A program made the position numbers and the translations under genes. Shown one piece after another: positions 43,780 to 45,698 of a stretch of DNA of 57,145 nt. Origin of the DNA: Pleurocapsales cyanobacterium LEGE 10410 (GTDB taxonomy: Bacteria; Cyanobacteriota; Cyanobacteriia; Cyanobacteriales; Xenococcaceae); NCBI GenBank assembly GCA_015207195.1, contig JADEXJ010000017.1:11-57155 (forward strand), given 5' to 3'. Within the stretch, counting starts at the first letter, position 1. Every line of letters begins with the position of its first letter. A model generated the notes under the pieces. It made no database searches and was not told the DNA's origin. It saw only the letters and a program-made list of their open reading frames with translations.

Positions 43780-44280
43780 TAAAATGATTTTATTACGGTT
43801 TAATTATCCTGAGTTACAAAGTCTGGACTTGACAAAACAAGCGTCTTAGTATCCATTTTTATTCTGTGTTCATTGCTTAAATCATAATACACATGAGTCA
43901 GTCAAATCTCAGCTTGGTTGACAGCTAGGAAAGGTAAATCTGATTTTCCTCAGAACCGTTCGTTTTAGAATTACTGTACAAGCGTTCAAATATTAGCCTA
44001 TATAAGGAGTTAACATAATTAATTATGTCTAATAGCCACGTTGCCCAAATCTGTAGTTTATTAGTTACTTGGTTAAGTGTTCGGCAATAACTCTATCTTC
44101 CACCATTGGTCGTTGCCTTTTTTTAGCATGGTCTCGGTTCAGTCTTTTACTCTTGCCCATAGAGAAATTACATCTTTCAATTGCTTACTCTATATGAGTT
44201 TGACACGATTTGGCTTTGGCTTTTTCCTTGACTTTTTTCTGATTTCCTTAACTTGTTACTAATGATAATAGTATGAACCA
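43780..44280. other. Divergent intergenic region, 501 bp
   Basis: Non-coding stretch between mlaE (minus) and the split ABM-type gene (plus). It includes a perfect 16-base palindrome ACATAATTAATTATGT at 44013-44028 and a 21-codon frame beginning within it (44025-44090) preceded by AAGGAG. Otherwise no hairpin with T-run, tRNA or clear ORF is seen. Confidence 0.55.
44013..44028. promoter_or_regulatory. Perfect 16-bp AT-rich palindrome
   Basis: ACATAATTAATTATGT is a perfect two-fold symmetric site with AAGGAG just before it. Symmetry and length are those of a dimeric regulator's operator. No regulator can be assigned. A 21-codon frame, MSNSHVAQICSLLVTWLSVRQ, starts at the ATG inside it (44025-44090), so alternatively the site covers the start of a tiny ORF. 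Confidence 0.3.
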
Positions 44281-45019
44281 ATGAAAAACCGAGATGCAGT
44301 CGATCCGCCCGTTACGGTTGTTATTTCGCGCAGGGTCAAACCTGGATGTGAAGCAGCGTTTGAAAAATTTATTTCAGGCATTACCGCTACTGCCATGACT
44401 TTTGAAGGACATTTAGGTACTAATGTCTTTCGTCCCAGTAGCCCCAAAAACAACGAATACAAAATTATTTTTAAATTTGATCGCGCTAGTAATCTTCGCA
44501 TCTGGCAAGAATCTGAAAGTCGCCGACAGTGGTTAGCCCGCGCTGATAGTTTACGTTTAGAGCCAGCTAGAATTAGGGTGATTACTGGTTTGGAAACTTG
44601 GTTTACCCTGCCTTGTCTCAGATCTTGCACCTAGCCTGTAATCTATCTGTTTTATTAGGGTAAAGGGTAAGGGGTAAAGGGAAAAGGGTATTAAATTGAT
44701 TACTAATCCCTAATTATTGAGTTTTTATGTACTGGTGCAAGATGTCAGTTGTCCCAAGCGAATTATACCGCCACTACGTTACAAAATGGCGACAATTACC
44801 TTGCTAGCTCTTTTCCCTTTAATCCAGCTTGTTAGTGCGATCTTTACACCCCTACTAGAACTGTTTCCCTTACCCGAACTGCTACAGAGTCTAATTTTGA
44901 CTGCCATCACCGTTTTACTAATGACTTATGCAGCAATGCCTAGAATGACTAAGCTATTTGCCTGGTGGCTATATCCAAAAAATTCATCCTCAAAACAAGT
45001 AAAGCGATCGCCTCGGTAG
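44281..45019 (+). pseudogene. Antibiotic-biosynthesis-monooxygenase-domain membrane protein, split by an insertion
   Basis: The first part (44281-44616, 112 codons) codes an ABM-type ferredoxin-like domain: DPPVTVVISRRVKPGCEAAFEKF, GHLGTNVFRPSSP, FDRASNLRIWQESESRRQWLA and LETWFTLPC. The second (44753-45019, 88 codons) codes the two membrane helices and the PRMTKLFAWWLYPKN end. Together they match the roughly 200-residue cyanobacterial family in which both parts are one protein. Between them lies a 132-base element with 4-base direct repeats; removing the element and one repeat (136 bases, 3n+1) restores the frame exactly. The inserted stop truncates the protein after residue 117. Confidence 0.85.
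44617..44748. mobile_element. MITE-like element, 132 bp, with TIRs and target duplication
   Basis: The ends are CTCAGATCTTGCACC and, as reverse complement of the right end, CTGACATCTTGCACC: 15-bp terminal inverted repeats with two mismatches. TTGT occurs on both sides (44613-44616 and 44749-44752), a 4-base target duplication (TTGTC, 5 bases, also fits). The interior has no transposase and contains purine-rich GGGTAAAGGG-type runs. The size, repeats and clean disruption of a gene indicate a non-autonomous element. The parent insertion sequence is not in the window. Confidence 0.82.
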
Positions 45020-45077
45020 CAAAATCGCTTGATTTATCTTTGGTTGTTTCAAAAGTTTGAGCCTAAAACCTCAAATT

Positions 45078-45698
45078 CTACAAACCTTTAACAACAATGT
45101 GTCGCTCATCATCAAAATAAACTAAGCCCCGTTCTTGGAAATCACCGAGAATTCTAGTAACCGTTACTCTGGTAGTATGAATAGCTTCAGCCAAATGCTG
45201 ATGAGTAAAACGTACCTGCAAGCGAACTCCATCAGCAACCGACTGTCCAATTTCCCGCTCAAGCATCAACAAAAACTGTCGTAGACGCTCTTCGACTTTT
45301 CTAATAGCAATAATCGATAGTAAGTGTTCCGACATAATTAGGCGATCGCTAAACTGAGCCAAAAACTGTCTGGCTAATAGAGGATAATTAACTAGATCTT
45401 GTTGACAATAGCGTCGAACATAAACATCGGACAAAGCCACAGCACGGTAAAAAACAGTAGAATTATCTACAGAACTCTCAAAACAATTACCAAAAACGCC
45501 ATTGGCTGTGATCCAGGCTAAAATTATCTCAGTTCCATCCTGACGAACTTTACTCAACTGCACTACACCACGATAAACCTGCCAAACCCCTGAATCTAAA
45601 ACAGAAATTTCATCTCCTCTTTCATATTGCTGTAGAGGTATTTCTCTCTCTTTTCTTTTTAGACTTAAGTTAGAGTTTATTTCTTGACTCAGTAACAT
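45078..45698 (-). CDS. Crp/Fnr-family transcriptional regulator
   Basis: A 206-residue regulator with a cyclic-nucleotide-binding-like beta-roll (about residues 20-110) and a C-terminal winged helix-turn-helix (RFTHQHLAEAIHTTRVTVTRILGDFQERGLVYFDDERHIVV). The HTH is very like that of NtcA (AEAIGSTRVTVTRLLGD). The phosphate-binding cassette for cAMP is not conserved (FGNCFESSVDNSTVFYRA), so cAMP is not an expected ligand; no Cys cluster for an iron-sulfur cluster is present. Last gene of a minus-strand group glnB-like, hydroxylase-like, Crp/Fnr. Confidence 0.92.
   Translation of the reverse strand: MLLSQEINSNLSLKRKEREIPLQQYERGDEISVLDSGVWQVYRGVVQLSKVRQDGTEIILAWITANGVFGNCFESSVDNSTVFYRAVALSDVYVRRYCQQDLVNYPLLARQFLAQFSDRLIMSEHLLSIIAIRKVEERLRQFLLMLEREIGQSVADGVRLQVRFTHQHLAEAIHTTRVTVTRILGDFQERGLVYFDDERHIVVKGL

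Follow-up and report, generated by a model that had tools for sequence, protein, structure and literature searches.

Two neighbouring reading frames of Pleurocapsales cyanobacterium LEGE 10410 raise the question of whether they are two genes or the remains of a single one. They lie at positions 44281 to 45019 of the window, the whole stretch of 57,145 nucleotides analysed here. The 132 bp at 44617..44748 are, with a probability of about 0.93, a real MITE insertion, probably recent, that splits the gene for a membrane protein with an antibiotic biosynthesis monooxygenase (ABM) domain. For one MITE family, the analysis brings together copies in relatives, host genes without the insert and a likely helper.

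The interrupted gene

The 5' part of the gene (44281..44616, forward strand) encodes residues 1-112, and its closest homologues are 73-88% identical. The Pfam ABM family PF03992 matches residues 10-86 (E-value 2.6e-6; 27.9 bits, cut-off 23.1), and the domain lies whole upstream of the insert. The 3' part (44753..45019, forward strand) encodes 88 residues and a stop codon. It has no Pfam match; hydropathy and alignment with homologues give it two hydrophobic segments and a basic tail.

As the sequence stands, the upstream frame (44281-44634) encodes 117 amino acids and meets a stop codon five codons inside the insert, and the downstream one runs from a TTG within the insert to 45019. Deleting the insert together with one flanking repeat (132 + 4 = 136 bases) leaves a single open frame of 200 residues, which bears out the original prediction that this removal fuses the two frames into a protein of about that length. 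Hydropathy in the joined frame exceeds 1.6 (19-residue windows) from residues 123-132 and 149-156, and these two C-terminal segments are probably membrane-spanning. PF03992 in the first half and both hydropathy peaks in the C-terminal part agree with the predicted domain order of ABM followed by two membrane helices.

The full-length protein with its ABM domain and two helices would no longer be made from this locus, and a truncated ABM protein of 117 residues may still be. The same genome contains four further, more distant homologues (35-46% identical) with open frames, so loss of the split gene may be tolerated. In annotation, 44281-45019 is better recorded as one interrupted gene than as two hypothetical genes.

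Evidence that the gene was once continuous can be found in related genomes. Among 60 genomes searched, including that of the window, 21 match the first half of the gene. At all 10 places with 73-88% identity, in nine other genomes, one tblastn alignment spans the insertion point, and the homologues are stop-free open frames of 193-267 residues that reach the hydrophobic C-terminal part. The original prediction had raised the contrary case of homologues that naturally end at the first stop; all ten run on into the C-terminal part. Five of them (L155, L156, L159, L160, L161) align to the joined frame without internal gaps. The other five have gaps of one or two residues, and the one-residue gap of L157 adjoins the junction. 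There the joined window frame has LPCPKRIIPPLRYKM, and the relatives L158, L161 and L162 have LPSPKPIIPPPRYKM.

The next homologue, at 63% identity (L164 in genome G008, another species of the same genus), crosses the insertion point and has stops elsewhere; it has been damaged independently.

Structure of the insert

The insert is flanked by perfect TTGT repeats at 44613..44616 and 44749..44752, both read directly; the frame is restored when the insert is taken out along with one of them. The left terminal inverted repeat, CTCAGATCTTGCACC (44617..44631, forward strand), is the same as the ends of insertion sequences resident in the genome. The right one, CTGACATCTTGCACC (44734..44748, reverse complement), matches the left at 13 of 15 positions, and this variant also occurs in five copies from relatives (L184, L189, L198, L203, L211). 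Direct reading thus confirms what had been claimed of a 132-base insert with imperfect 15-bp inverted ends, a TTGT repeat and no transposase. The insert has the characters of a MITE: it is short and without a transposase frame, it has inverted ends and a target duplication, its relatives are dispersed, and its ends are held in common with an autonomous element.

The interior contains a purine-rich tract (44658..44689, forward strand), with borders set by eye on the family alignment. The original prediction had supposed that this tract might be specific to the copy. That idea fails, since aligned relatives have a tract of the GGGTAAAGGG type in the corresponding position, and in two (L216, L217) it is much shortened; the tract is a feature of the family, constant in position and variable in length. 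Folding of the 132-bp insert as RNA gives a z-score of -1.42, with 20 of 200 shuffled sequences folding equally well, and thus makes no case for RNA structure.

Copies in other genomes

The insert was searched for in the same number of genomes (60, again including its own), with at most 14 candidates scored per genome, so that all counts are lower bounds. By hand count there are at least 107 matches in at least 24 of the 60 genomes, many of them short and limited to the purine-rich tract. At least 29 of the matches (the window's own included), in at least 12 genomes, span at least 120 of the 132 bases. The search for other copies that had been proposed therefore succeeds: near full-length relatives are present in at least 11 other genomes, at up to 94% identity. 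Among the matches listed, the best copies outside the genome, 94% and 89% identical, are in G019, which belongs to the same family and to another genus.

Within its own genome, a draft assembly of 392 contigs, the complete insert was found once. Two further matches there cover the purine-rich tract only and were rejected as copies. Plasmid records were likewise rejected as a source of copies: none of 10 records covers 80% of the insert, and all matches fall in or beside the purine-rich tract, so a match to the tract by itself does not point to a copy.

For 35 loci the ends and flanking bases were read; some of these loci contain two or three of the matches, and the remaining matches are mostly short or confined to the tract. 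Thirty-one loci were aligned. Duplications were counted in the 29, window included, with both flanks readable, once four loci whose right ends could not be resolved (L195, L196, L197, L209) and two lacking a right flank (L186, L188) had been set aside. The copies stand at unrelated places, with their own, different flanking duplications: 5 bp in 16 copies, 4 bp in 7 (including the window) and no exact one in 6. Shuffling the pairing of flanks 1000 times gives means of 1.4 (5 bp) and 1.6 (4 bp). The predicted 4-base duplication is thus correct for the site in the window; in the family as a whole, 5 bp is the commoner size.

Six copies (L210-L215, in G004 and G025) have a further palindromic insert of 50 bp inside the purine tract. 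Both genomes contain copies with TTT and copies with AAA in its three-base loop, as if the hairpin flipped in place; the 50-bp insert is possibly a nested mobile repeat. Beside the right end, copies have either ACTGGTGCAAG (for example L198, L205, L208 and L211-L215) or AAGGCGTGCAAG / AAGGAGTGCAAG (L184, L186, L210). The switch between the two is independent of the rest of the copy, as if right-end variants were exchanged by conversion between copies.

A putative helper in the same genome

The genome contains the end pattern CTSASATCTTGCACC 32 times, the two ends belonging to this insert included, and the reversed control pattern not once, so the ends of the insert are not a product of chance. 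The end CTCAGATCTTGCACC is present at 30 other places (reversed control 0), not each of which is a demonstrated insertion-sequence boundary. For at least 15 of the 30, a contig end is no more than about 200 bases away, the pattern that a repeated element should leave in a draft assembly.

Two pairs of this end enclose complete insertion sequences, one of 1718 bp (C132) and one of 1720 bp (C316). Each has an open transposase frame of 371 codons and 15-bp ends identical to the left end of the MITE, whose right end agrees with them at 13 of 15 positions. The original prediction had called for a transposase whose inverted ends contain ATCTTGCACC, and it is these two elements that supply it. Their transposases match PF01609 at about 1e-12, with 47.6 and 48.3 bits against a gathering score of 23. 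Curated NCBIfam cut-offs are not reached: the C132 transposase stays below those of IS701, IS4 and IS1634 models, its scores being 68 bits (cut-off 170), 48.6 bits (150) and 45.9 bits (250), of which 68 is the best. The C132 element has no flanking duplication, and that of C316 is imperfect.

Related insertion sequences can be found in four named cyanobacteria, with transposases 52-76% identical, and in genome G005. All five (G005, Gloeothece, Nostoc, Rippkaea, Calothrix) have the ATCTTGCACC core at both ends. The G005 element (L219) is 1721 bp long with TAATA on either side, the Gloeothece plasmid copy (L272) has a TTTAA duplication and the Nostoc plasmid copy (L273) GAAT. The Rippkaea copy has no duplication, and the Calothrix copy is cut on one side by the end of the record. 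Two separate CDS are annotated across the transposase region in both the Gloeothece and the Rippkaea record, and the transposase may therefore be broken in these.

Beside the transposase, the C132 and C316 elements each have one more frame, divergent and 133 or 136 codons long (L152:774-1175, reverse strand; L153:1785-2195, forward strand). Comparable frames exist in several genera, among them those of the helper-type insertion sequences at L272:1034-1435 and L275:980-1381 (both reverse strand). Neither Pfam nor NCBIfam gives a match for the C132 frame (L152), which has relatives in 36 plasmid records; a regulator or an accessory transposition protein is possible.

Proposed mobilisation and alternative explanations

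From these ends and frames, the following course of events may be proposed. An IS4/IS701-like DDE transposase that recognises ends of the CTCAGATCTTGCACC type would move the MITE in trans, and this transposase would most likely be the one still resident in the genome. The MITE would recently have inserted into the gene for the ABM domain and two membrane helices, duplicating TTGT and splitting the gene. Several points count against this course of events: the right end of the MITE differs from the resident ends at 2 of 15 positions, 6 of 29 family copies have no exact duplication, and of the two complete resident insertion sequences one lacks a flanking duplication and the other has an imperfect one. 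It is conceivable, if rather unlikely, that the MITE belongs to another autonomous element with similar ends, now absent, and that the resident element was not the mover. Resemblance to the resident insertion sequences hardly extends past the ends (by eye), so the MITE did not arise from them by simple internal deletion, and this would fit an absent helper as the differing right end would. So would two genomes that have MITE copies and in which no intact helper-type transposase was found: the near complete G010, where two copies are near full-length, gave no such transposase match at E 0.001, and G004, in which copies are numerous, has a short remnant only. An absent helper accords less well with a left end identical to the resident ends at all 15 positions, with duplication sizes that fit those of three of the five related insertion sequences, and with the ATCTTGCACC core at both ends of all five. 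The resident IS4/IS701-like transposase is a good candidate for the helper and, judged by sequence, quite probably is one. The genome would then hold a ready pair for trans-mobilisation, a 1.72-kb element with an open transposase frame and a 132-bp passenger.

Other explanations concern the gene. The split might be functional, the first half giving a soluble 117-residue ABM protein and the second being made separately from a start inside the MITE. The ABM domain is complete upstream of the insert, the second frame is open from a TTG in the insert with an in-frame GTG downstream, and the substitutions give no sign of decay. Against this, a scan of 44200-45100 found no promoter or terminator, no ribosome-binding site was seen by eye before the second half, and the GTG falls in end sequence common to many copies elsewhere. 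The 10 closest homologues are uninterrupted, and recency alone explains the absence of decay. A functional split is very improbable, and it would be an outside chance at best that the MITE, by supplying a start codon to the second half, replaced one membrane-anchored ABM protein by a soluble ABM enzyme and a separate small membrane protein of two helices. That the insert belonged to the gene ancestrally, or is an artefact of assembly, is scarcely credible. The single copy in a draft of 392 contigs might suggest it, but the insert is absent from 10 of the 10 closest homologues, its duplication is perfect, and its relatives stand alone at other loci in other genomes.

Age and route of arrival

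A recent MITE insertion is also consistent with the state of the gene. Over 188 columns, the window's gene has 5 private amino-acid changes, and eight comparators have 1-7. This count gives no sign of decay, so the split is probably recent; the result fits recency and gives no date. Ends, duplication, uninterrupted homologues and lack of decay thus agree with the recent transposition originally proposed, its recency being probable.

The host gene of the genome differs from that of G019 at silent sites by 0.64 (N-terminal part) and 0.68 (C-terminal part), which is near saturation; this comparison covers one gene. Since the non-coding MITE is 94% identical between the two, we infer horizontal spread. 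Sequences in G019 are 92-96% identical to one end of the C132 element over 121-186 bp, and about 81% identical to the other end over 122-125 bp. In the simplest reading, the common source of the copies in G019 and in this genome is much younger than the split of the hosts. With one copy found in this genome, amplification is seen in other lineages, and the copy here probably arrived horizontally. These MITEs seem to move horizontally between members of one cyanobacterial family and to disrupt genes as they do so.

Comparison with known elements

The element of the window is an ordinary, textbook kind of MITE insertion. Relatives have the gene uninterrupted, and the same genome contains a plausible helper. 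Bacterial MITEs, as treated in the available portion of PMC10969869, are likewise short, have inverted ends and no transposase gene, duplicate their target, have copies in related genomes and disrupt genes. The window's element does not differ from them in kind, and the sequence of its family was not met in that portion; the review cites Nezha, another cyanobacterial MITE. The MITEs of Anabaena sp. 90, in the accessible text of PMC3542288, are 77-541 bp long, and 15 of 147 lie inside disrupted genes. They resemble the window's element in being cyanobacterial and gene-disrupting. Their ends are without evident similarity to resident insertion sequences (type II), whereas those of the window's MITE match a resident insertion sequence, which in the terms of that text makes it type I.

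The putative helper resembles the IS701 and IS4 families in its PF01609 match above the cut-off and its weak NCBIfam matches to both. It differs in falling below every NCBIfam cut-off and in its extra divergent frame of 133-136 codons; copies with a duplication have one of 5 bp or 4 bp. No earlier description of the MITE family was met in the literature searched, in the portions available and with key subscription papers lying outside that search. A text search for ATCTTGCACC gave no title on cyanobacterial transposons among the matches listed.

Other elements with the core end

Genome contigs were also scanned for two ATCTTGCACC cores 60-90 bases apart. At least 118 stretches have such a pair, and 4 of the 118 are non-cyanobacterial by title (L079, L084, L099, L112); these four have different outer ends and no flanking duplication. 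The paired-core elements, at 90-120 bp, are shorter than the window's 132-bp MITE, and membership of the same family is not implied. Among the matches listed there are 114 distinct elements, with an exact duplication of 4 bp in 65, of 6 bp in 13 and none in 32; 200 shuffles give 3.4 (4 bp) and 0.2 (6 bp) for the same elements.

Several elements with 6-bp duplications (L047, L049, L067, L127 and two copies in L137) occupy the loop of a hairpin whose 6-base arms pair perfectly and begin with AGTC. With identical elements kept, the AGTC hairpin is present in 6 of 14 six-bp cases and 0 of 68 four-bp cases among the matches listed, which suggests that core-end elements with 6-bp duplications target a hairpin repeat.
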